Of a stretch of 64,000 nucleotides of DNA, positions 21,023-36,932 are shown piece after piece (within the stretch, counting starts at the first letter, position 1; each line of letters opens with the position of its first letter). Below the pieces are notes generated by a model. That model searched no databases and was not told where the DNA came from. It saw only the letters and a list, made by a program, of their open reading frames with translations. The DNA is from Verrucosispora sp. WMMD573 (lineage in GTDB: Bacteria > Actinomycetota > Actinomycetes > Mycobacteriales > Micromonosporaceae): positions 3,162,001 to 3,226,000 of the forward strand of contig NZ_CP114901.1 of the NCBI RefSeq assembly GCF_027497175.1, in the 5' to 3' direction. Both the position numbers and the translations under genes were made by a program.

Positions 21023-21247
21023 ATGCGGTCGGGTAACGACATTGCTACCTTGCCACCGGTGGCGAGGCGGAGGTACGTGGCGAGGGGCGTTGATGGCGGC
21101 TACCGGATCTGGGACAACCGGGCTCGCCGGTGGTGGGGCGACCTTTATGAGCTCTGCCCAGACGAGTTGCTCAATGAGCTGAACGGTGCCCGTGACTACG
21201 CCAAGATCACGGCGCTGCTCCGGAAGTACCGAGCACAGAAGCGGTAA
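21023..21247 (+). CDS. Small hypothetical protein
   Basis: 74 residues from ATG at 21023 (GTG at 20996 would overlap a repeat core). Basic, with a Trp-rich centre (GGYRIWDNRARRWWGDLYEL) and a C-terminal helix. It contains no known motif. It lies right after a GCGGCAGATCAG repeat, as do several island genes. Confidence 0.5.
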   Translation: MRSGNDIATLPPVARRRYVARGVDGGYRIWDNRARRWWGDLYELCPDELLNELNGARDYAKITALLRKYRAQKR

Positions 21248-21369
21248 CGCACAACAGCAATCAGCCAGCCCGCGTCGATCGTCAGGACGGACGCCGCCGT
21301 CCGGTCGATAAGCGATGGTGACGCCCTGATGATCTTTACAGGGATCGAAAGTCGTGCGAGCGTCGGTCT

Positions 21370-21642
21370 GTGCTCCCCATTGGCCTGAGCAACTGCGCAG
21401 ACGCATCACCGCAGGCTCCGCTCGGGGTCCTCGGGGTTCTGTTCCTGACGTTCACCCTCGGAAACGTCATCCTGTGGCTGTGGGCCAAGCGCCGGCTACG
21501 AGCAGGCAGAACGCTGCCGGGACCTTCCCGAGTGCTTCGCCTGTCCGTCAACCACCCGAAGCTCTTCTTCGGTGCCTTGTGCGCACAGATTACGATCGGC
21601 GTCCTGCTGGTGCTGACCACCATCGTCGCGACCGGTCGTTGA
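21370..21642 (+). CDS. Small two-helix membrane protein
   Basis: 90 residues from GTG at 21370. Two hydrophobic segments (about 18-37 and 66-86) separated by a basic loop (WAKRRLRAGRTLPGPSRVLR), so both termini probably face the same side. Family unknown. Confidence 0.45.
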   Translation: MLPIGLSNCADASPQAPLGVLGVLFLTFTLGNVILWLWAKRRLRAGRTLPGPSRVLRLSVNHPKLFFGALCAQITIGVLLVLTTIVATGR

Positions 21643-21732
21643 CAGTCGGCTCTCCCGTCGACCAGCTACGGAAGGCTGCCTCAAGGGCGCGGTTTCCTCA
21701 GTGCCCGCCTTGGCGGCAGATCAGTGCCCAGT

Positions 21733-22212
21733 TCAGGTGGCTGTGAAGACCACGGCACGCCCAGCGGCCGCGGCCCGCTTGTAGAGCGCCCGAACCTCGA
21801 CGAAGTTGTCCCAGGTGTAGTCGAAGTCGGCGTCGTCGAGGGCACCGCGATAGTCGGGGTCGTCGATTGCGTCGAACCGCTGGCGCAGCTGGCATCGGTC
21901 GACGGACTGCAGAGCGGCGGCCACGTCCCGGGCCTTGTCCACCGTGAGGTAGACCACGACGTACTCGTCGTGCAGCCGGCGCCCGCCGAGCACCGCATGG
22001 CTCAACGGATACTCACCACCGTCAGGTTTGAGGGCGCCGTCGGTCAGGCACCGGTGGATGCCGTCCCATGCCTTGTCGGTATCGACCTTCAGGCCGTCCT
22101 CGGCCCACGACTCCTCGATCTTCTCGATAAGTTCGTCAACCGCGTCGCTGTCGCCGGCCGCGAGCAGCGACCGCTCCTGCTCCGGCGCGATCGCGAAGTG
22201 CACTCCCAACAC
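21733..22212 (-). CDS. DUF1877 (YfbM) family protein
   Basis: 159 residues. The pattern MLGVHFAIAPEQERSLLAAG, then ESWAEDGLKVDTDKAWDGIH and PLSHAVLGGRRL is the YfbM/DUF1877 signature (W-xx-IH-xxL and avLGG). The fold is known but not the role; these genes are frequent in immunity-gene arrays beside nuclease-toxin systems. Cytoplasmic, monocistronic here. Confidence 0.8.
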   Translation of the reverse strand: MLGVHFAIAPEQERSLLAAGDSDAVDELIEKIEESWAEDGLKVDTDKAWDGIHRCLTDGALKPDGGEYPLSHAVLGGRRLHDEYVVVYLTVDKARDVAAALQSVDRCQLRQRFDAIDDPDYRGALDDADFDYTWDNFVEVRALYKRAAAAGRAVVFTAT

Positions 22213-22254
22213 GCAGAGATCCTATGCCGATCTTCAGGTTGCGGAGGTTCACCT

Positions 22255-22315
22255 CGGACCACGGCACGAAGGAGCAGCAAGGGTGGCCGCGCTCGATCCG
22301 CGGCAGATCCGGACG
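22255..22315 (+). repeat. 61-base element shared with 19700-19757 and partly with 18185-18215
   Basis: Carries the CGGACCACGGCACGA segment and the GCGGCAGATCCGGACG core. Its middle part CGCGCTCGATCCGCGGCA also occurs at about 18190-18206, so repeat blocks appear to have been recombined in pieces. Confidence 0.55.
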
Positions 22316-22370
22316 CAGGTGACACCATGGGCCGCGATAGCTGGGGAGGACGTCGATCGAGGTGGACAGG

Positions 22371-22850
22371 ATGACGGACGACGCGTGGCACGGTTTGAGT
22401 GATCCGCTCCTGGTCTGCTCACGCGGCTTCGTGGTGGAGTTGGCGGCGGTGTTACCGACGTCCGGCAGGTTCGTCGTCGCCCGCCTTGACGGTATGAGGA
22501 TGGCGGATGCCGGCCATGTCTTCTACGACTTCTCGGACGCGTTGTTCTTCCCCAGCTACTTCGGCTGGAACTGGAACGCCCTGTCCGACTGCCTCCGAGA
22601 TCTGCGCTGGCTGCCGGCGGACGGCTACCTGGTGATCGTCGACAACGCAACCCAGTTGTTGTCGGACAGCATCCAGGACCGGCACACGCTCTTCCGTGTC
22701 CTCGCCCGGGCAGTTCGCCACTGGGCGAGCCCGCTCGGCCGACCGCAAGGGCAGGTGACCCCGTTCATGGTGTTGCTGCTGTCCGACGGCGACGACGAGG
22801 CGGTGCAGCTACGGCAGGACATCGCGCAGGCATTGTCCGGTGGGCACTGA
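22371..22850 (+). CDS. Barstar-like ribonuclease inhibitor
   Basis: 159 residues from ATG at 22371, with GAGGTGG five bases upstream; GTG at 22362 is an alternative. It has the barstar core: FVVARLDGMRMADAGHVFYD (strand-helix), SYFGWNWNALSDCLRDL (the FG-x-NWNAL-x-DCL signature) and a final strand LVIVDNATQLL. Barstars bind and block secreted RNases of the barnase type. No barnase-like toxin lies nearby, so it may protect against toxins from neighbouring bacteria. Confidence 0.9.
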   Translation: MTDDAWHGLSDPLLVCSRGFVVELAAVLPTSGRFVVARLDGMRMADAGHVFYDFSDALFFPSYFGWNWNALSDCLRDLRWLPADGYLVIVDNATQLLSDSIQDRHTLFRVLARAVRHWASPLGRPQGQVTPFMVLLLSDGDDEAVQLRQDIAQALSGGH

Positions 22851-22986
22851 AGTCCGAACCGTACCCGGTGTCCGGCGTCTGCTGCTTGCGGCGAAGGATA
22901 TGCCTGAGAAGGGTTCAGCCGAGGCCTCCCCAGGCCCTTTGTGAGCGGACAGCGGCATGATCGGGCGCCCATCTCGGTCGCCCGTC

Positions 22987-23535
22987 TCAGTTCGGTCGCC
23001 CACCGAACCGCCACTGATGCACCTCGATTCCGGCGTATCGATCAGCGGAGAGGACTTCCCGCGCGCCGTCTCCGTCGGGCGCTTCCAGCAGAACTGCCGC
23101 CCCGAGCACCAGGGAACCGTCGTCGGACAAGAGCGGCCCACTGGCAATCAGCTCGTCGCGGAGCGGTAGTTCGGTGGCGTCCGCTGCTGGTTCCAAGGTG
23201 AACCCGAGGACGAGGTAGCGGTTGTCGTCAGGCCAGCCGCCACTGAAATCCCACATCGTGCGACCCAGGGAGTTGTGCCACCGTCGCAGCAGCACGTCGC
23301 GGTAGGCACCAGCCTGGTAACCGGGCTCCTCGAAGGCAAAGGTGCGGGCAGCGGTGGGATCTGGCAGATCGAGGATGTGCACGCTGCCGGTCAGAGTTCC
23401 GTCGCTGGTGAAGGTAGGGCCGCGGGCGATCATCGTCGCGGCGAACTGATCCATGTACGACCAATGCTGCTCCACCATCTGGCTCCGCAGCGGCGTCGAA
23501 CCGGGGCGATCGCGGTGGTAGCAGAAGAATTCCAT
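22987..23535 (-). CDS. YciI family protein with two YCII domains
   Basis: 182 residues. The first unit (MEFFCYHRDRPGSTPLRSQM, VEQHWSYMDQFAATMIARGP, GSVHILDLPDPTAARTFAFE) and the second (LVLGFTLEPAADATELPLRD, SGPLLSDDGSLVLGAAVLLEA) are both dimeric alpha-beta barrels of the YCII type, each with the His/Asp pair region. Such proteins are small cytoplasmic enzymes or binding proteins, often linked to ECF sigma factors; none is nearby here. Confidence 0.8.
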   Translation of the reverse strand: MEFFCYHRDRPGSTPLRSQMVEQHWSYMDQFAATMIARGPTFTSDGTLTGSVHILDLPDPTAARTFAFEEPGYQAGAYRDVLLRRWHNSLGRTMWDFSGGWPDDNRYLVLGFTLEPAADATELPLRDELIASGPLLSDDGSLVLGAAVLLEAPDGDGAREVLSADRYAGIEVHQWRFGGRPN

Positions 23536-23621
23536 GGGTCGAGCGTTGCTGAGGCTCCTGAGGCGCGCAATAGGATTGCTCGCAGCGTCGGGCTCGCTCG
23601 CTCATCGGCACGACCGCATGT

Positions 23622-23675
23622 TGGATGCCGCCGCCCTTGGTCACGTTCTGTGACGCACGGTTGGCGGCAGATCCG
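23622..23675 (+). repeat. 54-base element shared with 27430-27480
   Basis: GGATGCCGCCGCCC, TTGGTCACGTTCTGTGACG and CGGTTGGCGGCAGATCCG match 27430-27480 with about 10 differences. The central GTCACGTTCTGTGAC is a near-palindrome, also present in the other copy. Confidence 0.6.
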
Positions 23676-23706
23676 TGCACTTCGTCGTCACAGTTCGCTG
23701 AGGCAC

Positions 23707-24216
23707 TCAGGACGGAGGGAATTTGAAGTCCGGCCCAGTGCCCGGCACGACGAACGGTGAATGTCCTTCGCCGATGATGTCAACGACGAGGTCGGCGAAG
23801 ACGAGTGAGAGTTTGTGTCCGTTTGTCTCGATGGCCACTTCGTGGAACGGGATCCCGATGGAGCGAGACCAGCGGTCGGCGTCAGGCGACTCCGTCACAA
23901 GCCTCATTCCCGGGTACAGGTTCTGCCATCTCACGCCCCATACGTATCCGTCGAGGTCGCGGCCCTGGTCGTGGTCGATGAGCCGGTCGTCGAGCGACTC
24001 GCGCCACACCTGTGCAGGGACGGCGGATACCGCCGTGGCACGAACGCAGTACGTGAACCGGTACCGCAGGTGCTGTGAGGCGATTCCGGTACGCGGGTCG
24101 GCGGTGGCGTAGATGAAGATGTCATAGTCGCGCAGGTGGTCGGCGAAGCCGTGAAACACGATGGCTTGGTCGAACACCTCGTCGAACGCGGTCTGGATGC
24201 CGGCTTCGTCCACCAC
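23707..24216 (-). CDS. YxiG-like protein
   Basis: 169 residues from GTG at 24216. IQTAFDEVFDQAIVFHGFAD and HLRDYDIFIYATADPRTGI are the conserved N-terminal stretches of the YxiG-like family. LRYRFTYCVRATAVSAVPAQ and WGVRWQNLYPGM follow. Family members cluster with WapA-type toxin immunity genes in firmicutes, so an immunity role is plausible. Family call is from memory and medium in certainty. Confidence 0.6.
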   Translation of the reverse strand: MVDEAGIQTAFDEVFDQAIVFHGFADHLRDYDIFIYATADPRTGIASQHLRYRFTYCVRATAVSAVPAQVWRESLDDRLIDHDQGRDLDGYVWGVRWQNLYPGMRLVTESPDADRWSRSIGIPFHEVAIETNGHKLSLVFADLVVDIIGEGHSPFVVPGTGPDFKFPPS

Positions 24217-24265
24217 CAGATCGTCCCCCGACTCGAAGGTGATTGCATGTCCCGGCTTCGGCGAG

Positions 24266-24730
24266 TTACGGCTCGTGGGCTTGTGCCAGATGCGTGATGC
24301 GGGCTGCCCGTTGTATCAACAGTCGGCGTAGGTACGGCGCGATGAGCGCCCAGGTCACTACTGCGCCCAGCGGCCCCAGGGGCGCGCTGATGGTCATGCG
24401 GTCGGTCATCTGTGTGCGTAGGTCGTCGATGTCCTGGAAGTGGTGCTCGTGGCGCAGAGCGCGGAAGGGGCCTCGCGTCTGCTCGTCAACAAAGTGGTAC
24501 GGCCGTTCGTAGGCGGTGATTCGGCTGGTCATGCGCCAGGGCAGTCCGAAATGACGGGCGCGGAAGGCGACCTCGTCGCCGAGGGCGAGTTGGCGTCGTC
24601 CGGTGCTGGTCGTGGCTGTCCCGCGGCTGGCGGGCAGGGACGCGGTGTGGACGTCCACGTCGAGGGTCAGGTCGAATACCACACTCGGGGCGGCGTTGAT
24701 GACGGACACGACCTCGATGAGCGCCGGCAC
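24266..24730 (-). CDS. SRPBCC family protein
   Basis: 154 residues from GTG at 24730. IEVVSVINAAPSVVFDLTLD is the first strand and helix of the START/Bet v1-like fold, RARHFGLPWRMTSRITAYER and FRALRHEHHFQDIDDL the central strands, and PLGAVVTWALIAPYLRRLL the long C-terminal helix. These bind hydrophobic small molecules. It overlaps no neighbour and probably shares a transcript with the YxiG-like gene 49 bases downstream. Confidence 0.75.
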   Translation of the reverse strand: MPALIEVVSVINAAPSVVFDLTLDVDVHTASLPASRGTATTSTGRRQLALGDEVAFRARHFGLPWRMTSRITAYERPYHFVDEQTRGPFRALRHEHHFQDIDDLRTQMTDRMTISAPLGPLGAVVTWALIAPYLRRLLIQRAARITHLAQAHEP

Positions 24731-24893
24731 ATGGCGAGCCTAGCCTTGGGCGATACCCCAGGCCGCCCGGCCATGACCGCGTCCTTACGCCACAGCGGTC
24801 GGGCACCAACGTCGTCTCCGCAGCGGGCGCTCTGCGGAAGGCCGTCGCCTCGGTAGGCTCGCTTCCGGCGAGCCGAAGCGAGACGATGTGTCG

Positions 24894-25268
24894 ATGGCCA
24901 GACCGAACGAAGAGAAGCAGGACGAGGTCGGCTGGTTCTGCGTTCGCTGCGTCTTCCGCGTGGGCGGCGACTCGTCGAGCCAGTTGTATGAAGAACGGCT
25001 GACGTTGTGGCGCGCCGCAGGTTTCGATGAGGCGATCGTGTTAGCCGAGGACGAGGCCCTCGGCTATGCGGCGGAGCAGCCCGACATGGACTTTGTAGGG
25101 CTTTCCCAGGCGTATCGCCTGTTTGATGATCCCGGGCATGGGGCGGAGGTCTTCTCGCTGGTGCGGGCAAGCGAACTGGATCCACCGGCCTACCTGACGA
25201 GGTTTTTCGACACCGGCGAGGAAAAACAGGGCGAGCTTAGAGCGTGTTTGAGAAGGGTCAGGCTTTGA
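24894..25268 (+). CDS. DUF4288 family protein, C-terminus rewritten by an IS5 element
   Basis: 124 residues from ATG at 24894. DEVGWFCVRCVFRVGG, YEERLTLWRAAGFDEAI and EDEALGYAAE mark the DUF4288 family, commonly found with SUKH-type immunity genes. The IS5 element enters at 25240. Joining the bases on either side (minus one TTA copy) restores GELNPGT and a stop at 26188, so the original protein ended EEKQGELNPGT. Now the last residues RACLRRVRL come from the element. The change affects only the tail, so the protein may still work. Confidence 0.75.
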   Translation: MARPNEEKQDEVGWFCVRCVFRVGGDSSSQLYEERLTLWRAAGFDEAIVLAEDEALGYAAEQPDMDFVGLSQAYRLFDDPGHGAEVFSLVRASELDPPAYLTRFFDTGEEKQGELRACLRRVRL

Positions 25269-26173
25269 GGTTGTCGAGGGTCCAGGCTCGTTGACGGCGT
25301 GCGGGTCGGCCGCGGGTGAGGCGGCGGAGCATGCCGTTGATGGCGGCCCAGCGGATCATGGCTTCGGAGGTGGCGGGGTGGCGTTCGTAGTCGCGGGCCA
25401 GTCTGCGGTGGCCGGTCAGCCAGGCAAGGCTGCGCTCGACGACCCATCGGCGGGCGATTACGGCGAATCCTTTCTGGCCTGGGGCCTTGCGTACGATTTC
25501 CAGGGTGGTGCGCAGGATGCGTTGGCACCAGTCGACCAGGGTTCCGGCGAAGCCGGCGTCGGCGTAGACGAACCGGACCGGGGTGAACAGGTACGCCGAC
25601 AGCAGAGTCGTCTTCGCTCCGTCGCGGTCCTGCACGCTCGCGGCCATCACGCACACGACTAGGAGCAGACCCAGGGTGTCGGTGACGATGAACCGTTTGC
25701 GGCCGTTGACCTTCTTGCCCGCGTCGTAGCCACGGGTGTCCCGGCCGACGGTGTCGGCGCCTTTGACGCTCTGGGAGTCGATGATGCCTGCCGTGGGTTC
25801 GGCGGCGCGGCCTTGGGCGGCGCGGACCCTTCGGCGCAGCGCGACGAGGATCCGCTCGGTGACATCGTCTTCCTCCCAGCGGGTGAAGTACCAGTACACC
25901 GTCTGCCACGGCGGGAAGTCGACCGGCAGTTGCCGCCACGAGCAGCCGGTCCGCACCACGTACAGGATCGCGTTCACCACGTCGCGGCGTGGATGTTTCT
26001 CCGGCCGGCCACCGGTTCTCGGTGGTGGCAGCAGCGGCTCGACCAGCGCCCATTGGGCGTCGGTCAGGTCCGAGGGGTAGCGACGCTGACGCGACATCGA
26101 GCCACTATGGACCAACGGCCGCTAACCGACGGCGCGACACGCCACCCATCACGAGAACTTCTCAAACACCCTC
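25240..26173 (-). mobile_element. IS5 family insertion sequence, apparently intact
   Basis: 934 bp with 16-base terminal inverted repeats GAG(C/G)GTGTTTGAGAAG (one mismatch) and a TTA target duplication on both sides (25237-25239 and 26174-26176). It carries one transposase gene on the minus strand. The three-base TNA-type duplication fits the IS1031-like branch of IS5. Confidence 0.9.
25258..26097 (-). CDS. IS5 family transposase
   Basis: 279 residues from ATG at 26097 (MSRQRRYPSDLTDAQWALVE, the DUF4096 N-terminal domain). The DDE residues appear in order: IIDSQSVKG, FVYADAGFAG and WVVERSLAWLTGHRRL, with the Y-(2)-R-(3)-E-(6)-K-like region of IS4/IS5 enzymes. No frameshift is present, so the element may be active. 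Confidence 0.92.
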   Translation of the reverse strand: MSRQRRYPSDLTDAQWALVEPLLPPPRTGGRPEKHPRRDVVNAILYVVRTGCSWRQLPVDFPPWQTVYWYFTRWEEDDVTERILVALRRRVRAAQGRAAEPTAGIIDSQSVKGADTVGRDTRGYDAGKKVNGRKRFIVTDTLGLLLVVCVMAASVQDRDGAKTTLLSAYLFTPVRFVYADAGFAGTLVDWCQRILRTTLEIVRKAPGQKGFAVIARRWVVERSLAWLTGHRRLARDYERHPATSEAMIRWAAINGMLRRLTRGRPARRQRAWTLDNLKA

Positions 26174-26301
26174 TTAATCCCGGCACCTGACCGAGCGCCG
26201 CCCCTGTTCCCAGCAAGCTTGCGCCGATCTCGCACCCGATCTGCGGCAGATCAGTGCGTCCGGATGACTGCACGGCCACGTGCCCTGGCAAACTCAGCCG
26301 C

Positions 26302-26487
26302 GTGTTGACCACCATCACCCTCGGGAACGTCGGTACCGCCGCAATCGTCGTCGGTCTGCTCATCGCCCTGTTGACTCTCGGCACAACCACCGACCGTCCA
26401 TTTACGCTGGCCTGGCTGCTCGTACTCGTCGGTACCGGCCTGCGGTTGGAGGCCGCCATCCGTGCCCCGAAACGCCAGGCACGATAG
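26302..26487 (+). CDS. Small two-helix membrane protein
   Basis: 61 residues from GTG at 26302 (GTG at 26254 would start in a repeat core). Two hydrophobic helices (about 5-26 and 33-50) and a basic tail (RAPKRQAR). Similar in build to the protein at 21370 but not clearly homologous. Confidence 0.45.
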   Translation: MLTTITLGNVGTAAIVVGLLIALLTLGTTTDRPFTLAWLLVLVGTGLRLEAAIRAPKRQAR

Positions 26488-26887
26488 CCCAACCGCTGAC
26501 CTTCCCGGCAGTACAGCAGCCCAGGTGTCGGTGCGGCAGGGGTGGAGGCTGGCGCAGTCCCCTCGGTGGGAGCGTGCTCCGACAGGTTGCCCGACAACGT
26601 GCCGAATATCGGACGATCTGTGCGTGGAGATCATCCATCTGCTGCGGGCGGGAGTGGCCCGGCCGGCCGATCCGCTTCCGTTGTCGTAGTCGACCACGCC
26701 AGGTACTGTCGCCTGTCGTGAACACCGGACCGGCGCAACGCCACACACGGATCGGCGACCCGGTGGACAGCTGACCGACCGGCGGGTGCCTGGTGGGCAC
26801 CCCGCTGATTCGGCACGCGGGCCTCCAAGCAATCAACGCTCACCAGGTCCCGTCATAGCCGTGTCGAACAACAGCGAGGTCAGCCGA
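26488..26887. other. Spacer without a recognisable gene
   Basis: 400 bases. No convincing frame on either strand; the long minus-strand frames are low-complexity. Nothing repeat-like was seen. Confidence 0.45.
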
Positions 26888-27262
26888 ATGGCAGTCAGGT
26901 TCAACCACACCATCATCGCCGCCAAGGATCGCAACGAGTCAGCCCGGTTCTACCGTGAGTTGCTTGAAGTTCCGGAGGCGCCGCCCTGGGGTGTGTTCAC
27001 CAACATCCAGCTCAGCGACGGTGTGCTACTCCAGTTCGCCGAACCGCCGGTGGAGATTCAGATGCAGCACTACGCGTTCCTGATCGACGACAACCTGTTC
27101 GATCGGGCATACGCGCGACTGCGCGAGCACGGCATAGAGCACTGGGCCGATCCGCAGATGCGTCGCCCTGGCGAGATCAACAACGAGCACGGTGGCCGGG
27201 GAGTCTACTTCAAAGACCCCGCAGGCCACGCGATCGAACTGATCACCCGCCCGTACCTGTAG
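26888..27262 (+). CDS. VOC (glyoxalase/bleomycin-resistance fold) protein
   Basis: 124 residues from ATG at 26888. FNHTIIAAKDRNESARFYRE gives the first metal histidine, HYAFLIDDNLFDRAYARL the second strand pair, and GRGVYFKDPAGHAIELITRPY the last with the metal-binding Glu. The fold binds a divalent metal and may be a dioxygenase, isomerase or drug-binding protein. The long upstream open frame is spacer. Confidence 0.85.
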   Translation: MAVRFNHTIIAAKDRNESARFYRELLEVPEAPPWGVFTNIQLSDGVLLQFAEPPVEIQMQHYAFLIDDNLFDRAYARLREHGIEHWADPQMRRPGEINNEHGGRGVYFKDPAGHAIELITRPYL

Positions 27263-27401
27263 CAGATGCCTCTGGCCGGGCGCCCGTCACTCGGTGCCCG
27301 GCCAGGGTGCCCACAGCCGCACCGGCGATCGTGCACAGCCGCCACCACCTTCTTGTCTTTTCAGGACGCGCAACCCCCGGTGCCGCAATCTGAGCATCAG
27401 G

Positions 27402-27430
27402 CAACGCACTGAACTCGGCGCGATCGCGCT
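27402..27430 (+). repeat. ACTCAACTCGGCACG-type element, also at 9181 and 12788
   Basis: AACGCACTGAACTCGGCGCG here matches ACGCGCTCAACTCGGCACG at 9183-9201 and AACGCACTCAACTCGGCACG at 12789-12808. In the copies at 12788 and 27402 a GGTCGGCGGC core follows 50-60 bases later, so this is probably the left end of a unit of 80-90 bases. Confidence 0.55.
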
Positions 27431-27480
27431 GGATGCTGCCGTCCATGGTCACGTTCTCTGACGTGCGGTCGGCGGCCGAA
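27430..27480 (+). repeat. 51-base element shared with 23622-23675
   Basis: Second copy of the GGATGCYGCCG...GTCACGTTCTSTGACG...GGCGGC block. It lies in the 311-base spacer between the VOC and histidine phosphatase genes, which otherwise holds nothing recognisable. Confidence 0.6.
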
Positions 27481-27573
27481 CGAGTACACCGGGCGGTGTT
27501 CTGGGCCGGGTCGTCCGTGCCTCCGTGATCTATGGTGCTCCTCGTCACACAAGGACCCGGAGGGCGGCGCACG

Positions 27574-28146
27574 ATGGCTCGTACACAGCTGTACCTCGTC
27601 CGCCACGGCGAACAGGGTTCGGTCTCCGACCACGCCCCGGACGAAGGTCTGTCGCAGCTCGGCCGCGACCAGGCCGACCGGCTGGGCAGACGGCTCCGCA
27701 CCGTGCCTTTCTCGGCCGTCCACCACAGCTCACTGGCCCGGGCGGCCCAAACCGCCGACATCGTCGCCCGCTACCTCCCACAGGTACCACGACACGACTG
27801 CGACTTCGTCGCAGACCGTACGCCGGTGCCTTCTGCCGCCGAACGTGGCCGATACCCGGGACGGTGGCATGCATGGCTTGACGGTGTGCTCGACGACGAG
27901 CGCGACGAAGACGCCGTGGCCCTACGGGCCGCCGTTGAGCACTTCGGGGTCACCGGCGAGGAGGACCGGCATGAACTGCTGATCACGCACAACTTAGTGA
28001 TCGGCTGGTTCGTCCGCCACGTGCTTGACGCCCCGGTGTGGCGGTGGATAGGCCTCAATCAAGCCAACTGCGCTATCACCATCGTGCAGTGGGATTCCGA
28101 TCGACCGCCAACCTTGGTCAGCTTCAACGACACCGGACACCTGTAG
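27574..28146 (+). CDS. Histidine phosphatase family protein
   Basis: 190 residues from ATG at 27574, preceded by GGAGGG. The catalytic LYLVRHGEQG (RHG) motif, HHSSLARAAQTADIVARYLP and HELLITHNLVIGWFVRHVL with the second His are the phosphoglycerate-mutase-like phosphatase core. It acts on small phosphates or phosphoproteins; the substrate is unknown. It ends the island and is convergent with the 1352-aa gene. Confidence 0.88.
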   Translation: MARTQLYLVRHGEQGSVSDHAPDEGLSQLGRDQADRLGRRLRTVPFSAVHHSSLARAAQTADIVARYLPQVPRHDCDFVADRTPVPSAAERGRYPGRWHAWLDGVLDDERDEDAVALRAAVEHFGVTGEEDRHELLITHNLVIGWFVRHVLDAPVWRWIGLNQANCAITIVQWDSDRPPTLVSFNDTGHL

Positions 28147-28153
28147 CCGAAGA

Positions 28154-28192
28154 GCATCCGCTATGGCGGATGCCCGAGATCGCGTTTCGGGC
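28154..28192. terminator. Double hairpin between convergent genes
   Basis: GCATCCGC/GCGGATGC (loop TATG, 28154-28173) and GCCCGA/TCGGGC (28172-28192) sit in the 57-base gap between the phosphatase and WD40-protein stops. Confidence 0.65.
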
Positions 28193-28203
28193 ACGGCCCT
28201 GCG

Positions 28204-31200
28204 TCATTGGGCGATCGCGAGCGCGAGCAGACCCTGGTCCAGGCCCACCACCAGGGTGTCGCCAATGGCGCAGCAGGTCAGCGCCGGATGGTAGACGGGG
28301 ATGGTGTGCACCGCCCGGCCGGTCGTCGGATCCCAGACTCGGACCGTGCGGTCCCGGCTGGTCGATGCGATCAAGTTGCGACCGCCGATCCGCACCAGGC
28401 TCAGCCCGGTGACCGGGCCGCGGTGCCCGGTGAACCATCGAACCGGCTGGCCCCACTCCGCGTCCCACATCCGGATCGTGTGGTCCGCGCTGGCCGATAC
28501 CAGCATCGGGCGACCGGCCACCACCACTCCGCACAGCGCGTTGACCGCATCCTGATGTCCCTGCTGTAACCAGAGCGGGGTATCTCCACCGGCCCACAGC
28601 ATCACGGTGCCGCTCTTGTCCGCCGAGGCGAGCGCCTCGAAACCCGGCCACCTGACCGTGGCCAAGGCGGTCACCCAGGCGCGGGTGACGTGGCCGAGGA
28701 GCACCGCGCGTACGGTGCCGGTGTGCGGGTTCCACAACCGGATTGCCTGGTCGTCGCCGGCCGAGGCGATCAGGGTTTCACCCTTGACGACGATCGGGCA
28801 GACCGCGGCCACCGGGGCGTGGTGTTCGGTCATCTCCCAACCCAACGTGCCGTCCCGGGCGTTCCACGCGCCGACGGTGTTGTCCTCCTGCGCGGTGAAG
28901 ATCAGCGGCTCCTCGTCGTCGGCGACCGCACACATCGCGTTGACCGCGCTGCCCTCCGTCTTGAACTCCAGGACCCGCTCGCCGGTGCTGACATCCCAAC
29001 AGCGCACCTGGCCGTCGACCCCGCCTGCGGCTACCAGTGCTGGCTGCCCACTGGGCACGGGGCAGAGCGCGCTCACCGGACCGTACCGGTCCGGGTCGGT
29101 GACCGTGTCCGGCTGACCGCCGGCCGGATCCCACAGCCGCACCGTGCCGTCGTCGCCGGCGGTGGCGAGCATCCGTTCCTTCGCGGTACGCAGCTCGCAG
29201 ACCGCACGGACCCAGTTCGCATGCCCCTGCAGGCTGGGACGGCTGACCCAGGTCTGTACCTCCCACAGCCGGATGAAACCGTCCTCGCCTGTCGACACCA
29301 GCAGGCATCCGCCGTCGACGTCGACAGTGCACAGGTCGGTGATCGGTCCGCCGGTGTCGAGGGTCTGTACCAGCCGGCCGGTCAGGGGATTCCACAGGCG
29401 GACGGTGCCGTCGTAGCCCGCCGAAGCGAGCAACGTGCCCTCGGGCGAGCGGACGGGGTAGAGGGTCGTGACCCAGCCAGCATGGCCGACGAGGGTCAGC
29501 ATTGGTCGGCCACCGGCGCTCGGTTCCCAGATCCGGATCACACTGTCGAAGCCGGTGGAAGCCAACAGGTGCCGGCCGCCGGCGGGAACATACGTCACCG
29601 CCGTCACCCAGCCGACGTGTCCGGTCAACACGTACCGCTGATCGCCCGTATCCGGATCCCAGACGCGTACCGTACGGTCGTCGCCGGCCGAGACGAGCAG
29701 ATCACCGGCGGGCAGCGGAATGACGCAGATGTTGCGTACCCAGTCGTGGTGCCCACGCAACTCATGCCGGCGGCGGCCGGTCCGTGGTTCCCACAACCCC
29801 ACCGTGCCGTCGTGGCTGGCGGTGGCGATCAGCACCTCGCCGGCACCGGTCCGGACCGCGCACACGCCACGGATCGTGTCAGCGTGGCAGGTGAAGACCG
29901 ACTCGACCTGGTTGGTCAGCGGATCCCAGAGCCGGACGGTGCCGTCGTCACCGGCCGAGGCGAGGAGCCGGCGGTTGTCGATCTCGATGGCCGCGACGTC
30001 GTAGACCGCCTGTGAGTGCCCGTCCAGCACGCTGCGTTCCTGTCGCGGCGGTGTGTGCGCCCACCGCGCCCGGTACGGTGCCTCGTCCGCCACGATTCCG
30101 CTGTTCAGGCCATCGAGGCGGTCGACGACCGAGAGGAGCGCGGCGCGCTCGGCCGGTTCCGCCGCCACCGCCAGCGGGGTGCGTTGCAGCAGCCTTGCTC
30201 GGGCCTGCGCGAGCGGTGCGGTAGGCGTGTGTTCTGCGTCGACCACGGTGAGCAACCGGTCGAGGTGCGCGTGCAGCAGGTAACCCTCGTCGGTGAGCAG
30301 CCGTTCCACCAGACCGGCCCGGGCGGCGTGCTGCGGTAGCGAGCGCAGCAGGTAATCCGGACAGGCCGCCCATCCGGTGACGCCGGCCAGGTCGACCCAG
30401 GCGGACACCAGTCGGCGCTGGTCGTCGCGGCGCAAGGCCCGCACGTCGCGGTCGGCCAGCAACGCGTCGTTGAGGGCCTGGTGGAACAGCCGGTACGCGG
30501 GCTGCGCGCCTCCGCCGCTCTCGACCAGGAAGTTCGCAGCGGCGGTACGGGCGAACCCGAGCAGTTCCGACTCGGTGACGGTCCCGCCCAATGCTGTCAC
30601 CGCCGCCTGCCACAGTGGCAGCGGCAGTCCCGGTGTCTCGGCGTATGCGAGCACGGTCAGGGCCAGTCGGGCGGGTGTCGAGCCCGCCGCAGGCAGCCCG
30701 GCGAGGTAGGCGTCCAGCGCGTGCGCCACGGTGGCGGTGAACGACACCGTTGCCGGGTCGACGGGTTCGGTGTCGCGCAACGCGTGTGTCCGGGCGACCA
30801 GGCCGGCGACGAGAAAGTTGCCCTTGGCCAGGGCGGCGATGCGGCGGGCGAGTGGGGCGGCGGTCCCCGGATCGGCGTACGGGTTGGCGGGCCGCTCGAC
30901 ACCGAGCAGTTGCAGGGTCGCCTGGGCATAGTTGACGAGATCGGCTTCGGCGAAGTACTCCGGTGCGTCCAGGTCGATCAGCTCCGCGTCGTCGCCGAAA
31001 CAGGTGACCAGATTGCCCTGGTCGTCGGAGCGTCGGGTGCCGACCACCACCCGGACCCCGTACCGGCCGCAGTCGCGGGCCAGCGGCAGCAGGATGTCGT
31101 CGATGATCTGCCGGGCGTGGCCGGGGTCGACGGCCTCGTCGAGCGCGTCGATGATCAGCGCGAATCGGTTGGGCCGGCGCTCCAGCCGGTCGCGTACCGC

Positions 31201-32262
31201 CGGCATCAGGTCGGCGGGAGCACCGGGCAGGTCGACGGCGACTGCCTGCGCGATCTCGGTGGCAACCTCGATGGCGGTCTTGCCCTTGGCATGCACGGCA
31301 CACGACACCGAGCCGACCTTGGCCCGGACGGCTACGTCGTCGCGCGGCAGCGTCGCCCGGATCTGCCGGTCGGCGGTGGTGACGACCCGGCCGAGGGCAG
31401 CGGACTTACCCACGCCGGGTGAGCCTGTGACGATCAGTGGTCGTTCGACAGGCCCCGAATCGTCAAGCCAGCTCACGATGCTGCGCAGGGCTGCGGTCCG
31501 GCCACGGAACCAGGCGCCGCCTTCGGTGTCCACTCCCACACCCCGGGCCCGGGGAAGCCAGTGCCGACCGGCCTCGCCGTCGCTGCTCAGCGCCCATCCC
31601 CAGGCGGACAGGGCGCTGTCGTCGGCGTCCTCGACCCGCCAGGCGGACAGGCTGCCCAGCTTCATCTCGGGTAGCTGTTCGTCCGCGTGGTGGAGGGTCA
31701 CGGCCTGGCCCTTGCCCTGGCTGTCGGCAGAGACCACGACGCCGATCACCGCCTGGTATTCCGGCGACCAGACGGCACCGCCGCTGAAGCCTCTGCTCAG
31801 TCCGCCGCTCGCGCCACTGTCGATCATGACGTGCCCGTAACCGCCGATCTTGGTGAAGGTGCCAGTGGCCGAGGTGCCACCGGGGATCGCGGTAGGAAAG
31901 CCGTACGCCCAGAAGGGGCGATCGACCAGTGGCCGGGGTTCCAGGCAGCGTAGCCGGGCTGCCGAGACCGTGGCCGGCACCGGCTCGACGAGTTCGAGCA
32001 CGACCAGATCGACGTGTGCGGCTTGCTTGCCGTCGTGCAGACACTGCCGGACCTTACGTCGATCGAAGTAGCTGACCTTCGATGCGAGCGGAAAGGCGAC
32101 CCACAGATCGTCGTGGAAGTTTCCGTCCGCGCCGAAGGCGACGTGATGGCAGGTGAGGACGAGATTCGTGTCGATGACGATTCCGGCGCCGACCGGGATG
32201 TGCTGATCGGGTCCGCGATGTAGGGCTACCGACCACGGGCTTCCGTCAGGGGCTGCTGTCAC
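28204..32262 (-). CDS. Trypsin-like protease - STAND NTPase - WD40 repeat protein
   Basis: 1352 residues from GTG at 32262. Residues 15-200 are a trypsin-like domain with the triad His40 (VLTCHHVAF), Asp85 (HVDLVVLEL) and Ser160 (GFSGGAVW); there is no signal peptide, so it is cytosolic. Residues 255-560 are a NACHT/STAND-type NTPase with Walker A GSPGVGKS (280-287) and Walker B ALIIDALDE (368-376). After a helical arm, about 14 WD40 repeats (745-1350, motifs such as GHxxWVxxV and DDGTVRLWD) would form two propellers. The family builds self-activated conflict systems: sensor repeats, oligomerising NTPase, protease effector. It is 15 bases downstream of its small partner gene. Confidence 0.88.
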   Translation of the reverse strand: MTAAPDGSPWSVALHRGPDQHIPVGAGIVIDTNLVLTCHHVAFGADGNFHDDLWVAFPLASKVSYFDRRKVRQCLHDGKQAAHVDLVVLELVEPVPATVSAARLRCLEPRPLVDRPFWAYGFPTAIPGGTSATGTFTKIGGYGHVMIDSGASGGLSRGFSGGAVWSPEYQAVIGVVVSADSQGKGQAVTLHHADEQLPEMKLGSLSAWRVEDADDSALSAWGWALSSDGEAGRHWLPRARGVGVDTEGGAWFRGRTAALRSIVSWLDDSGPVERPLIVTGSPGVGKSAALGRVVTTADRQIRATLPRDDVAVRAKVGSVSCAVHAKGKTAIEVATEIAQAVAVDLPGAPADLMPAVRDRLERRPNRFALIIDALDEAVDPGHARQIIDDILLPLARDCGRYGVRVVVGTRRSDDQGNLVTCFGDDAELIDLDAPEYFAEADLVNYAQATLQLLGVERPANPYADPGTAAPLARRIAALAKGNFLVAGLVARTHALRDTEPVDPATVSFTATVAHALDAYLAGLPAAGSTPARLALTVLAYAETPGLPLPLWQAAVTALGGTVTESELLGFARTAAANFLVESGGGAQPAYRLFHQALNDALLADRDVRALRRDDQRRLVSAWVDLAGVTGWAACPDYLLRSLPQHAARAGLVERLLTDEGYLLHAHLDRLLTVVDAEHTPTAPLAQARARLLQRTPLAVAAEPAERAALLSVVDRLDGLNSGIVADEAPYRARWAHTPPRQERSVLDGHSQAVYDVAAIEIDNRRLLASAGDDGTVRLWDPLTNQVESVFTCHADTIRGVCAVRTGAGEVLIATASHDGTVGLWEPRTGRRRHELRGHHDWVRNICVIPLPAGDLLVSAGDDRTVRVWDPDTGDQRYVLTGHVGWVTAVTYVPAGGRHLLASTGFDSVIRIWEPSAGGRPMLTLVGHAGWVTTLYPVRSPEGTLLASAGYDGTVRLWNPLTGRLVQTLDTGGPITDLCTVDVDGGCLLVSTGEDGFIRLWEVQTWVSRPSLQGHANWVRAVCELRTAKERMLATAGDDGTVRLWDPAGGQPDTVTDPDRYGPVSALCPVPSGQPALVAAGGVDGQVRCWDVSTGERVLEFKTEGSAVNAMCAVADDEEPLIFTAQEDNTVGAWNARDGTLGWEMTEHHAPVAAVCPIVVKGETLIASAGDDQAIRLWNPHTGTVRAVLLGHVTRAWVTALATVRWPGFEALASADKSGTVMLWAGGDTPLWLQQGHQDAVNALCGVVVAGRPMLVSASADHTIRMWDAEWGQPVRWFTGHRGPVTGLSLVRIGGRNLIASTSRDRTVRVWDPTTGRAVHTIPVYHPALTCCAIGDTLVVGLDQGLLALAIAQ

Positions 32263-32277
32263 GGATCACCCCATCCG

Positions 32278-32607
32278 TCAAAGCCGCGACACGGTGCCGT
32301 GAGCCGGTGAGCCGCCTCCGTGCCAGGTCAGGGTGACCTCGAAGTTCGCCTCACCGGTCGCCTTGGCTATAACCCAGTTCGCCGTCCCGGTCGCCTTGAT
32401 CCCGAATCGCACCTCGACCACGTCCGGTGCCGCGGCCTTCACCTGCTCGAGTAACTCCCGCGCGGCAGCGACAGCCGGCGCCGCGGACTCCCGCACCCAT
32501 CCGGCGACATCGCCGGTGCCCGCAGGCTGAAAGCCCGGAGGCGGCTCGACTTCGATCAGCGCGACCGTCTTGTCGTCGACCTGGTAGCGGACCATCTCAG
32601 ACTGCAC
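32278..32607 (-). CDS. Trypsin-co-occurring domain (Trypco1, CU044_2847 family) protein
   Basis: 109 residues from GTG at 32607 with GGAGAGG upstream. VRYQVDDKTVALIEVEPPPG, APAVAAARELLEQVKAAAPD and VEVRFGIKATGTANWVIAKA form the family pattern: a beta pair, a helix, then the EVRFGIK and ANFEVTLTW strands. The domain is known for sitting beside trypsin-STAND proteins, and here it is first in a two-gene operon with one. It may present or gate the protease. Biochemical role undetermined. Confidence 0.8.
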   Translation of the reverse strand: MQSEMVRYQVDDKTVALIEVEPPPGFQPAGTGDVAGWVRESAAPAVAAARELLEQVKAAAPDVVEVRFGIKATGTANWVIAKATGEANFEVTLTWHGGGSPAHGTVSRL

Positions 32608-32985
32608 CGGTCACCTCTCCGTGGCGCTTCTCCGATACGGCAGGAGAGGCCGCGGTTTCGTGCACTCGCGGCTGGCCTCTCGCCGATCAGCCATGCTGCC
32701 TGTTGTCGTGGATATTTGGCAACGGCCGATTACCTGATTACCCGACAACGCTCCGAACAGGTGTTTCAGCCACCCGGCCCAGGCTGCGCCACTGAAGATC
32801 CGCTCAGCCGTGCTGTCGGTTTTCGTCAGCTCGAATGACGACCTTGCGCTTGCCGGTGACCGTCGGCAGAATCGGCCCGGGCGTGGGGCCATTCCCGTTG
32901 CCGCGCCAGGATCACGGCCACCCCTCCGAGTCTTCGATCATCACCGTCGACGTGGTGAGAGCTCGTGCCACAGAGGAGCATCCGC
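32608..32985. promoter_or_regulatory. Divergent control region of the two conflict operons
   Basis: 378 bases shared by the protease-STAND operon (minus) and the HerA-like operon (plus), with no gene of its own. CCTCTCC/GGAGAGG repeats occur near the minus-strand start. No clear -10/-35 pair could be assigned with confidence. Confidence 0.4.
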
Positions 32986-33651
32986 ATGTCGGAAAGAGAA
33001 CTGACCCTCGTTGAACGGTGCATTCTGATCACATTAATGATCAAGGCGACCCCGTTGCCGCAGACGTACTTCACCAACGTCGCCAAGATCTCGCTGAAAC
33101 CCGATCACCGTCGCCGCCTACGGTCCCTCGACCTTATCGACGTCGTCGAGAAGCCGAGGATCACATTGGAACTCACCGATAAGGGGTGGCGTCGGGCCGC
33201 CGAGGAGTTGGGTTCGGAGCCGCCGAAGGGCGCGGGTACGGCCGGCGGGGTGCTCTACGTCGCATTGGATTTCCTGCGCCGCCTGATCGACCACTCCGGC
33301 AGTGCCGTCGACGACCTGTTTCGACTCCAGATCAAGGGAGAAGCCGTCGTCTCCGCGCTCACCGTGCCGTCGCCGGTCACGGCCCCGACAGTCGACGCCG
33401 TCGCGCTGGTTCGGCAGGCGTACCACGGCCTGGCCGGTCGACCGGGGGCCTACGTAATGCTGTCCGATCTGCGTGCCGCGCTGGACAGCCTGGGGCGTGC
33501 GGAGGTGGACGCCGCTCTGGTCAAACTCAACCGGGACCGCAACGTGCACCTGGTGCCGGAGTCCAACCAGAAGGTGCTCCGACCGGAGGAGCGGGCCGCT
33601 GCGGTGAACATCGGCAACCAGGACAAGCACCTCATCGCCATCTCGTCATGA
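32986..33651 (+). CDS. Winged-helix-like partner of the dual ATPase
   Basis: 221 residues from ATG at 32986, with GAGGAG nine bases upstream. The N-terminal 90 residues (LTLVERCILITLMIKATPLP, ISLKPDHRRRLRSLDLIDVV, ITLELTDKGWRRAAEE) read as a winged helix. A linker follows, then a second helical domain (ALVRQAYHGLAGRPGAYVML, DLRAALDSLGRAEVDAALVK) with a DRNVHLVPE wing, so two winged-helix units. Its stop overlaps the ATPase start (ATGA), implying a stoichiometric complex. Probable DNA- or partner-binding subunit; no named family recognised. Confidence 0.6.
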   Translation: MSERELTLVERCILITLMIKATPLPQTYFTNVAKISLKPDHRRRLRSLDLIDVVEKPRITLELTDKGWRRAAEELGSEPPKGAGTAGGVLYVALDFLRRLIDHSGSAVDDLFRLQIKGEAVVSALTVPSPVTAPTVDAVALVRQAYHGLAGRPGAYVMLSDLRAALDSLGRAEVDAALVKLNRDRNVHLVPESNQKVLRPEERAAAVNIGNQDKHLIAISS

Positions 33652-36600
33652 TGACCGAGGAGGAACGGCGGGCCCTGGCCGCGCTGAGGTTCAACTGGGC
33701 CCCGACCCCGGACGATGTGTGGAAGCCGACGCCGTTCCATGTCGACGGACTGCACCATGACGTCGTCGCCACGGTGCTGGACAGCTTCGCGGAGGCGGAC
33801 CACAGCGCCGACTCCAGTCCTGTCGGCGTCGCAGTCCTCGGCCAGCGGGGCACCGGCAAGACCCACCTGCTCGGCACGGTGCGTCAGCAGGTGCAGCAGC
33901 GCAACGGGTTCTTCTTCCTGGTCGAGCTGCTGGAGGCCCGCGCGTTCTGGCACAGCACCGCGATGTCGATGCTCGCGGGTTTTGCCAGGCCGATGCCCGA
34001 CGGCGCGACACAGCTGCGTACGTTCCTGCGCCGGCTGGCCGATCAGATGGATGCTCCGCGGACGGTACGGCGGGCGGTGACCGGGGAGACCGAGCTCAGC
34101 CGACCCGCGCTCGACGCCTTCGTCGACCTGATCCGCAAGACGAATCGGCAGATCGGCACCGAGTGCCAGGACACCGCCAGGGCGCTGGTCCTCTACGCCG
34201 CCGAGCAGCCGGCGCTGCAGGACATCGGCTACTACTTCCTCTGCTCCAACGACGAGGAGGAGCCGGGGCTGCGGGCCGGGTGGGGTCTGCGGCGCAGCCG
34301 GCGGGCCCCACAGGAGGTGGTCAAGGACACCTCCAGACTGCTCGCCATGGTCGGCCCGACGGTGATCGCGGTCGACCAGATCGACCTGATGGTCGCCCAG
34401 TCGGTCAAGACCACTCACAAGGACGTCCGCGGCGAGGTCGACTGGCAGACGTCGTTGCTGTTGGAGCAGGTCGCCAGCGGCCTGATGGCGCTGCGCGAAA
34501 CCACCCGCAGGTCGCTTTCCGTGGTCTCCTGCCTCCCGCAGACCTGGCAGGACGTCAAGGAGCAGGCCACCGACACGGTGCAGGACCGGTTCCGGGAGGC
34601 AGCCTTCCTCAAGGAGATCCCCTCCGTCGAGGTCGGACGCGAACTGGTTGAGAAGCGGTTCGCCGTGCTCTTCGACGGGCTCGGGTTCTCACCGCCGTAC
34701 CCGACCTGGCCCATCCATCCGTCCGCATTCGACGAGGTCGTCGGCTTCACCCCGCGCGAGTTGCTGCGCCGCATCGACACGCACGTCCGGGCCTGCCTGG
34801 CGGCCGGTGAGGTACGCGAACTCCGGCACCTGCTGCTCTCCGCCGTCGGTCAGCGGGCCCCGGCGGTAGAGGCGACGCCGGTCCGGCCGGCAACGGCGGC
34901 GAGCCTGGCCGACGAGTACGGGAAGATCGACGCCCGGTACGCGGAGCTGATTGCCGCAGCGGACCCTGAGCCCGCGGTACACCAGCAGTCCGAGGACGCC
35001 CGGGTGCCGGAGTTGCTCAAGGCTGGGCTGACCGCCTGGATCGCCGAGCAGGGCAGCGCAGTCGAGGCGTTCAGCCTCGACCCGATACCGGCGGGCGGAA
35101 AGCCGGCACTGCACGCACGGCTGCGGCACAGCCTCGACGACGAGAGCGAGGACGAGGAGCACTGGTCGTTCCGGGCGATCTGCGCGCCGCACCACATCGC
35201 CGCGCTCAATCGGATCCGCAACGCCATCACCACCGCCGGACTCACCGAGGGTGTCGCAAAGCGGCGGCTCTTCCTGCTCCGCAGCGACGACTGGTCGGCT
35301 GGTGCGCGTACCCGGGAGGTGCTGGACGCTTTCGAGCGGGCCGGAGGCCGGACGCTCGGCTTCCCGGCCGCGGACATCAGCCGGCTGGCCGCCCTGGAGC
35401 AGCTCATCCAGACGTACGGGCTGGAGACGCTGCGGCCGTGGTTCGCCGAACGGCGACCGGCGGCGGACATCGGCTGCCTGCGCGACGCGCTGGGCAGCCG
35501 TCACCAGGCCTCCGAGGGGGCAGCACACCGAGTGGTCGGCCGGGCATCGGTCTCGACACCGCCTGCTGTGCATCCGCCGCCTGCCGTGCGGCCGGTGACC
35601 GACCTGCCGCGGCCCGACGACGTGCCGGTGATCGGGTCCGCCGCCGGACCGCCCGCCGCAGGTGTGGATCCGCAGCACCTGGTGCTCGGCACCGTCACCG
35701 GGCGACCGGATCCGGTACGGGTCGGTCTCGAATCGCTGCGTCGGCACACGGTCATCTTCGCCGGTTCCGGCTCCGGCAAGACCGTCCTGATCCGCCGGCT
35801 GGTCGAGGAGTGTGCCCTGCGCGGTGTCTCTGCCATCGTTCTCGACCCGAACAACGACCTGGCCAGGCTCGGCGAAGCGTGGCCGGCAACCCCGGACGGG
35901 TGGGGGTCGGATGACGCGGACCTGGCTGACGCCTACCTGTCCGGCACCGACGTGGTGATCTGGACGCCGGGTCGACAGGCGGGCCGGCCGTTGAGCTTCC
36001 AGCCGTTGCCCCGGTTCGCCGACGTACTCGACGATCCGGACGGATTCACCGCCGCGGTGAACGCCGCCGTCGCCACCCTCGCGCCGCACGCCCGGGTAGA
36101 CGGCGGGACGGACAAGGCCCGGCTCGGCCGGGCGGTGTTGCGCGAGGCGTTGATCGGCTACGCCCACACCGGCGGCAACGACCTGCCCGAGTTCACCGAG
36201 TTGCTCAACGAGTTGCCCGACGGGATGAGTCAGCTCGATGGCGCGCCGAAGCTGGCAGCGAGCATGGCGCAGTTGCTCAAGGCGGCATTGATCAACGATC
36301 CGCTGTTCGGTGGTGCCGGCACGCCGGTCGACCCTGGTGAACTGCTCACCCCGCCGCCGGGCCGGCGGGCCCGGATATCGGTGATCAGCTTCGTGGGTCT
36401 ACCCGACGACCACCAGCGGCAGAGCTTCGTGAACCAGTTGCAGCTCGCCCTGTTCACCTGGATAAAGCGTCATCCGGCAGGTGACCGGCCGCTGGGTGGG
36501 CTCTTCGTGATGGACGAGGCGCAGACCCTGGCTCCCTCCGGGACCGTCACCGCGTGCACGCAGAGCACCCTGGCCTTGACCTCGCAGGCGCGCAAGTACG

Positions 36601-36899
36601 GGCTGGGTCTGGTCTTCGCCACCCAGTCACCGAAGGCACTGCACAATCAGATCCCCGGGAACGCGGCCACCCAACTCTTCGGCCTGTTGACCGCGCCGGT
36701 GCAGATCGAGGCGGCCCGGGACGTCGCCCGGGCCAAGGGCGCCGACGTGCCCGACGTCGGCAAGATGCGGACCGGGCAGTTCTACGCCGCGGTAGAGGGC
36801 AGCCGATTCGTCAAGATGCAGGCCCCGATGTGTCTGAGCCATCACCCCCGCAGTCCGCTGACCAGCGAGGAAGTCGTTAGGCGTGCGGCGCGCCAATAG
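33648..36899 (+). CDS. Fused ORC/AAA-like and HerA/TraG-like dual P-loop ATPase
   Basis: 1083 residues from ATG at 33648, overlapping the previous stop. Module 1 (about 25-400) has Walker A GQRGTGKTH (65-73) and Walker B TVIAVDQIDL (238-247), followed by a helical bundle as in ORC/Cdc6-type AAA proteins. A middle region (450-600, EEHWSFRAICAPHHIAALNR, RRLFLLRSDDWSAGARTREV) resembles no domain I can name. Module 2 (about 675-1075) has Walker A GSGSGKT (706-712), DPNNDLARLGEAW (733-745), Walker B GGLFVMDEAQTL (950-961) and the sensor LGLVFATQSPKAL (986-998), the HerA/TraG/VirB4 pattern. Likely a DNA-translocating or DNA-loading motor of a defence system. Confidence 0.75.
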   Translation: MMTEEERRALAALRFNWAPTPDDVWKPTPFHVDGLHHDVVATVLDSFAEADHSADSSPVGVAVLGQRGTGKTHLLGTVRQQVQQRNGFFFLVELLEARAFWHSTAMSMLAGFARPMPDGATQLRTFLRRLADQMDAPRTVRRAVTGETELSRPALDAFVDLIRKTNRQIGTECQDTARALVLYAAEQPALQDIGYYFLCSNDEEEPGLRAGWGLRRSRRAPQEVVKDTSRLLAMVGPTVIAVDQIDLMVAQSVKTTHKDVRGEVDWQTSLLLEQVASGLMALRETTRRSLSVVSCLPQTWQDVKEQATDTVQDRFREAAFLKEIPSVEVGRELVEKRFAVLFDGLGFSPPYPTWPIHPSAFDEVVGFTPRELLRRIDTHVRACLAAGEVRELRHLLLSAVGQRAPAVEATPVRPATAASLADEYGKIDARYAELIAAADPEPAVHQQSEDARVPELLKAGLTAWIAEQGSAVEAFSLDPIPAGGKPALHARLRHSLDDESEDEEHWSFRAICAPHHIAALNRIRNAITTAGLTEGVAKRRLFLLRSDDWSAGARTREVLDAFERAGGRTLGFPAADISRLAALEQLIQTYGLETLRPWFAERRPAADIGCLRDALGSRHQASEGAAHRVVGRASVSTPPAVHPPPAVRPVTDLPRPDDVPVIGSAAGPPAAGVDPQHLVLGTVTGRPDPVRVGLESLRRHTVIFAGSGSGKTVLIRRLVEECALRGVSAIVLDPNNDLARLGEAWPATPDGWGSDDADLADAYLSGTDVVIWTPGRQAGRPLSFQPLPRFADVLDDPDGFTAAVNAAVATLAPHARVDGGTDKARLGRAVLREALIGYAHTGGNDLPEFTELLNELPDGMSQLDGAPKLAASMAQLLKAALINDPLFGGAGTPVDPGELLTPPPGRRARISVISFVGLPDDHQRQSFVNQLQLALFTWIKRHPAGDRPLGGLFVMDEAQTLAPSGTVTACTQSTLALTSQARKYGLGLVFATQSPKALHNQIPGNAATQLFGLLTAPVQIEAARDVARAKGADVPDVGKMRTGQFYAAVEGSRFVKMQAPMCLSHHPRSPLTSEEVVRRAARQ

Positions 36900-36932
36900 G
36901 CAGTGACTGGGGGTACCTCGGTGACGGCGCGG

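Follow-up and report, generated by a model that had tools for sequence, protein, structure and literature searches.

Predicted HerA/FtsK capture systems are described in PMC10853773 (2024) as gene neighbourhoods composed of an Orc/CDC6 ATPase, an inactive and an active restriction endonuclease (REase), a HerA/FtsK motor and a winged helix-turn-helix (wHTH) protein; the active REase usually lies in the neighbourhood and the inactive one between the AAA and its wHTH. The predicted BREX-related capture systems of PMC12839542 (2026) combine a HerA/FtsK motor, an ORC/Cdc6-type ATPase, a wHTH and a STAND NTPase. Furthermore, Trypco1 was named as a neighbour of trypsin-like peptidases in a work that predicted the VMAP ternary systems (PMC7159879, 2020), and was termed an adapter in PMC10907252. 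We analysed a 64,000-nt window of the genome of Verrucosispora sp. WMMD573 (contig NZ_CP114901.1, positions 3,162,001 to 3,226,000), in which a Trypco1 gene and a gene for a trypsin-STAND-WD40 protein stand back to back with genes for a wHTH protein and a HerA-type motor. Comparison with relatives revealed that the two gene pairs are inherited as one unit, and that the wHTH-motor pair is a widespread constant core which swaps its partners. Coordinates are positions in the window, with gene starts and frames checked in the sequence:

28204..32262, minus strand: trypsin-like domain, STAND NTPase and WD40 repeats (P0001), 1352 aa, WD40 by Pfam
32278..32607, minus strand: Trypco1 (P0002), 109 aa; PF19493 68.8 bits (cut-off 24.6, E 6.5e-19), NF041216 67.3 bits
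32608..32985, no strand: divergent spacer, 378 bases, with blocks conserved across 17 aligned close relatives, the window counted in
32986..33651, plus strand: winged-helix (wHTH) protein, P0003 from its second start, the constant partner of the motor
33648..36899, plus strand: dual P-loop motor (P0005), 1083 aa, with AAA_22 and DUF87 above the Pfam cut-off

All four open reading frames at 28204-36899 are intact. The wHTH stop and the motor start overlap by 4 bases and the gap between the P0001 and Trypco1 genes is 15 bases, therefore both gene pairs look coupled, in agreement with the original prediction of two divergent operons with coupled starts. The predicted spacer length was exact as well, given that the wHTH start at ATG 32986 was favoured over GTG 32965 by a ribosome-site-like stretch ahead of the ATG, conserved in relatives; an Rfam scan of 28000-37200, spacer included, returned no match. 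P0001 carries His40, Asp85 and Ser160, the P-loop Lys286 and the Walker B Asp372, with Ser160 and Lys286 as named beforehand. The best 25 of the 49 Pfam families matching P0001 were all propeller models, and its protease and STAND parts were assigned from these residues, weak PADLOC matches (residues 18-192) and an alignment of 73 relatives at the triad and P-loop positions. P0003 had no Pfam match, and Foldseek alone on its model gave nothing at E 0.001 or better; a fold match identified it as a MarR-like winged helix. The motor consists of an N-terminal AAA domain (Lys71), an untyped middle domain and a C-terminal HerA/DndH-like motor (Lys711, Asp956-Glu957); lysines 71 and 711, the two ATPase lysines of the original prediction, were invariant in a 46-row alignment. 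The motor scored 38.3 bits with AAA_22 (cut-off 27) and 15.7 bits with an ORC-CDC6-like model, under the cut-off of 27. Structure matches assigned the HerA/DndH fold to the C-terminal half, which dominated the fold matches, none being placed for the N-terminal AAA or the middle domain. The best PADLOC match of the motor was mad8 (E 1.8e-18), with HerA models next.

The census of the trypsin-STAND part (740 aa, E <= 1e-60) in 354 genomes of the window's family yielded 73 places in 65 genomes, and a class-wide draw gave matches in 3 of 394 genomes, among them the genome of the window itself and a second from its genus; motor matches were present in 121 of 200 family genomes. The wHTH-motor core adjoins 47 of the 73 STAND proteins, across 9 genera and in a fixed divergent layout. 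The motor frame was seen at 46 of these loci, and at L145, where the contig ends, only the wHTH. In the STAND-region tree, made by a quick method that gave warnings on long rows, the 47 linked proteins stood on one side of a branch with support 97. Chance adjacency of the two operons was rejected on these counts, the linked proteins forming one clade.

The divergence of the parts is congruent as well. Pairwise distances (46 loci after a coverage filter, Mantel p 0.001, uncorrected for host ancestry and with no housekeeping control) correlated between the N-terminal half of the motor and STAND (0.86), WD40 (0.91) and wHTH (0.90), between the C-terminal half and STAND (0.88) and between wHTH and STAND (0.80), with the two halves of the motor itself serving as reference (0.91). 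Mean distances were 0.86 for wHTH, 0.62 for WD40, 0.47 for both STAND and the N-terminal half of the motor, 0.30 for its C-terminal half and 0.42 for Trypco1 (38 loci). The faster divergence of WD40 and wHTH than of STAND and motor fits a role as recognition parts. It had been predicted that the two operons belong together, which the linkage, the single clade and the congruent divergence bear out.

From the motor side, species genomes were scanned with a four-row motor alignment, the best 80 of at least 295 relatives were kept, and partner modules were counted within 6 kb of the core; this survey overlaps with the 73-place census and is not independent of it. The wHTH gene accompanied the motor in all 80 loci. 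In 48 loci the motor's strand also carried a DUF559 nuclease gene, in 13 there was a STAND/TPR-like protein and in 11 the Trypco1 and trypsin-STAND-WD40 pair, on the strand opposite to the motor, and no locus had two of these three modules; the other 8 showed another or no module (L012, with its contig cut, L048, L051, L059, L074, L082, L084 and L085). The possibility that the operons are rarely neighbours in other genomes thus fails from the STAND side, whereas from the motor side their pairing is a minority form. It should be added that “STAND/TPR-like” is a tentative label on a sequence cluster of 13, whose nSTAND3, AAA_16 and TPR matches were all under the Pfam cut-offs, with no match whatever in the scanned member L058. 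DUF559 was above the cut-off in the 3 nucleases scanned, all from plasmid-collection loci, and Asp295, Glu306 and Asp308 were invariant in 25 aligned rows, which makes an active nuclease likely in these relatives. No DUF559 nuclease, the only REase family covered by the search, was present at window 25001-40000 or, in the 11 trypsin-type loci, at a distance of up to 6 kb.

In the tree of 84 motors, 12 trypsin-type rows and L012 made up one group with support 100, the STAND/TPR-like label arose twice, and partner labels took 9 changes versus a shuffled mean of 31.0; the 51 nuclease rows comprised the 48 surveyed loci and three plasmid-collection loci. Outer flanking genes of the 11 trypsin-type loci were mostly unshared, with few exceptions such as L006 and L046, and some closely related nuclease loci had flanks in common.

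Several individual loci were of note on their own. In an Amycolatopsis (L051, 7035-9278), the core is directly preceded by a TIR gene and by another gene with AAA_31 and CATASP matches, and L059 has a relative of the latter; these genes form a possible further partner module. In Umezawaea endophytica (L048, 13208-14935), the core is followed directly by an AIPR/AbiU-type gene; as the only case of its kind, this may be due to chance. In Tsukamurella tyrosinosolvens (L002, 5940-15719, record labelled plasmid 22), the nuclease form is placed between the ribosomal protein genes rplN and rpsQ, accompanied there by VapBC-like and helicase genes.

The STAND P-loop lysine was kept in all 73 proteins, dead-trypsin ones included. 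Trypco1 genes accompanied 52 of the 57 proteins with an intact His, Asp and Ser triad and none of the 15 in which the protease was dead (at least one triad residue lost) or the domain absent (Fisher's p 1.3e-11, kinship among relatives ignored), therefore Trypco1 goes with protease activity; L202, with its trypsin region broken across frames, was set aside from these counts. Apart from L202, the 47 linked loci comprised 38 with the triad intact, all with Trypco1, and 8 with a dead or absent protease, none with Trypco1. These eight belong to two lineages, one consisting of L161-L164, L215 and L216, the last with the whole trypsin domain absent, and the other of L197 and L199. Motor, STAND P-loop and WD40 persist in all eight, therefore the linkage of STAND-WD40 and motor outlives the protease. 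A new effector in the motor linker of dead-protease loci was considered and rejected, the linker between the ATPase halves being composed of low-complexity residues (206-459 in L161, L162, L164, L215 and L216); it has 55 residues in L163 of the same lineage and 5-106 elsewhere.

HerA/DndH-type motors pump DNA, and STAND NTPases assemble once their repeat domain reads a cue. Our preferred reading, held tentatively and at slightly less than an even chance, is that the four genes form one anti-invader unit, related as a variant to the predicted HerA/FtsK-type capture systems, in which the STAND-WD40 protein acts with or licenses the motor and the trypsin is dispensable. The wHTH and the AAA-HerA motor, whose pairing and fold were observed, would bind and translocate DNA as the constant core, and the place held in most relatives by the DUF559 nuclease would be taken here by the divergent STAND-WD40 protein. 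The WD40 propeller may read an infection cue, nucleoside triphosphate binding by the STAND domain may then drive assembly, and the assembled protein may act on invading DNA together with the motor, or license the motor to act on it. The trypsin domain would add an arm for killing or processing that the unit can do without, and Trypco1 would serve the active protease only, as an inhibitor, chaperone or release factor. A broader version is possible and on balance somewhat doubtful: that an apoptosome-like STAND assembly gates the HerA/DndH-type motor, that trypsin and Trypco1 are a toxin-and-restraint arm kept or lost together, and that the core accepts nuclease, STAND/TPR, STAND-WD40-protease and TIR modules.

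A number of observations weigh against our preferred reading. The core was not found in the stretch read beside 26 of the 73 STAND proteins, of which L156 and L159, on contigs of 3013 and 3742 bases, were too short to judge. Host ancestry may also raise the distance correlations. On the tree, the Trypco1 link comes down to 4 supported independent pairs only (4 to 0 in 162 and 3 to 0 in 38 of 200 pairings; sign test 0.125-0.25, not significant), and five proteins with an intact protease had no detected Trypco1 (L154, L205, L207, L209 and L217, all unlinked), which speaks against a strict requirement. The triad kept in most linked loci indicates that the protease is usually useful. Moreover, no nuclease was recognised in the window form, which leaves the motor's action on DNA unexplained, and no phenotype is known for the unit, phage defence being predicted.

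The original prediction assigned the sensing or processing of DNA to the motor and the execution, by proteolysis, to the STAND protein; in its full form, as abortive infection with Trypco1 restraining the protease, we consider this explanation unlikely. It accords with the 38 linked loci that have both triad and Trypco1, and with the trypsin-like effectors that occur with Trypco partners in the predicted conflict systems of PMC7159879. It conflicts, however, with the eight linked loci that lack a working protease but retain motor, STAND and WD40, and with the 13 loci whose STAND/TPR-like partner has no recognised effector. Proteolysis is thus unlikely to be the essential output, and this part of the prediction was not sustained; because of the dead-protease loci and the STAND/TPR-like form, a sensor-switch role of the STAND protein fits better than a purely proteolytic output.

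Quite unlikely, in our judgement, are two independent defence systems, co-transferred in a defence-rich island with each operon acting alone. Such an arrangement would agree with the unlinked STAND proteins, 14 of which have Trypco1 and an intact triad, with the majority of cores that lack such a STAND protein and with the location of the locus in a variable island. On the other hand, the fixed divergent layout, the one origin, the matching divergence and the exclusive partner role oppose it.

The island in question is linked to a tRNA gene and has the following features:

6232-6306: tRNA-Val
6307..36925, no strand: variable segment of ~30.6 kb, bounded by tRNA-Val on the left and a conserved polysaccharide-deacetylase/GH10 flank on the right; the four genes close it on the right
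16350-17577: IS3-like pieces (IS, insertion sequence)
22362-22850: barstar-like protein
23707-24216: YxiG-like protein
25258-25980: IS4/5-type transposase piece

In three relatives (L218, L219 and L220), the source genomes of which are not among the 65 trypsin-STAND-positive ones, the left flank ends at tRNA-Val (window 6306-6317) and the right flank resumes at 36926-36964, with 2177, 461 and 116 bases, correspondingly, in place of the variable segment; in L221 and L222 the left flank did not show. Thus the four genes end ~26 bases before the right border of the tRNA-linked segment, and their predicted position at the right edge of an island was upheld by the three informative relatives out of five. 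Its description as repeat-rich found weak support: in 6000-40000, repeats of at least 60 bases were absent at an exact seed of 14, and a seed of 11 in 6310-28200 returned a single 152-nt pair at 74%, together with a degenerate 22-nt family, whose seven copies are spread over 10629-26254; two short tandem arrays also appeared in the repeat search. An att-flanked element was rejected, as no direct repeat of at least 11 bases was shared by window 6101-6450 and 27001-40000. Of the 21 predicted segment genes, 14 were scanned; these include IS fragments, a PadR regulator and the barstar-like and YxiG-like proteins, and no phage-type integrase or conjugation gene is among them. It should also be added that two tRNA groups, Gly-Cys-Val (3423-3691) and Gly-Val (6120-6306), lie 2.4 kb apart and share their Gly and Val anticodons. 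Many MarR-like winged helices act as regulators, and a role outside defence, in mobile-element maintenance or as a regulatory locus whose MarR-like protein controls both operons, might be suggested by this fold and by the variable island with its IS fragments, but we regard it as very improbable given the lack of integrase and conjugation genes among those scanned and the nuclease, TIR or AbiU-like partner modules elsewhere, which point to conflict.

The locus joins in one conserved unit the Trypco1/trypsin-STAND proteins and the HerA/AAA capture motors, both known mainly from prediction. Moreover, its relatives supply natural experiments, namely the partner-swapped cores and the series of dead-protease loci without Trypco1, and such variants open to direct test what Trypco1 does and how the STAND sensor and the DNA motor share the work.

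Among the known systems, MADS and the HerA complexes resemble the unit in the motor. MADS shares mad8, the best PADLOC match of the motor; membership was rejected, since mad8 alone was matched among the four proteins and mad1 to mad7 were not, the PADLOC scan having been confined to these proteins. The HerA-SIR2 and HerA-DUF4297 complexes (PDB entries) likewise have a HerA-type motor with exchangeable partner enzymes; unlike them, the window motor is extended by an N-terminal AAA and accompanied by a wHTH protein, and no SIR2 or DUF4297 match by Pfam or PADLOC was listed for the four proteins. The VMAP ternary systems, in the part of PMC7159879 cited, share a Trypco1 gene adjoining a gene with a trypsin-like domain, the triad of which is intact in the window, but pair it with vWA, MoxR and VMAP instead of STAND-WD40 and a HerA-type motor; no Pfam match to these three families was found in the full lists of three of the proteins, nor among the best 25 of 49 for P0001. 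The BREX-related capture systems carry, according to the text cited from PMC12839542, PglZ, DUF6079 and DUF4007, none of which was matched by Pfam in the four proteins.

The HerA/FtsK capture systems, as far as the cited text of PMC10853773 describes them, share with this family the motor, an AAA ATPase, a fast-evolving wHTH protein, mobile neighbourhoods and a nuclease, the latter as in the majority form (48 of 80 loci). Of the components of an Orc/CDC6-type capture system, the window has the HerA/FtsK motor and the wHTH, here the fastest-diverging part (0.86), and no active REase was seen, DUF559 being the family searched. The strand-helix order of the motor middle domain could suit an inactive REase, and no similarity emerged when motor and DUF559 nuclease were compared by profile. 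The window form differs from these systems by its Trypco1/trypsin-STAND-WD40 pair and by having no adjacent nuclease gene recognised. The words trypsin, WD40 and Trypco have no occurrence in the main texts of PMC10853773 and PMC12839542, and among the papers listed by a literature search, which covered main texts and few subscription papers or preprints, none described the Trypco1/trypsin-STAND-WD40 pair next to a HerA-type motor. The original prediction likewise knew of no described system with this pairing; it missed the widespread, partner-swapping wHTH-motor core, of which forms with nucleases were already predicted in PMC10853773. Taken together, the four-gene unit probably represents a variant, so far uncharacterised, of an antiviral system known from prediction.

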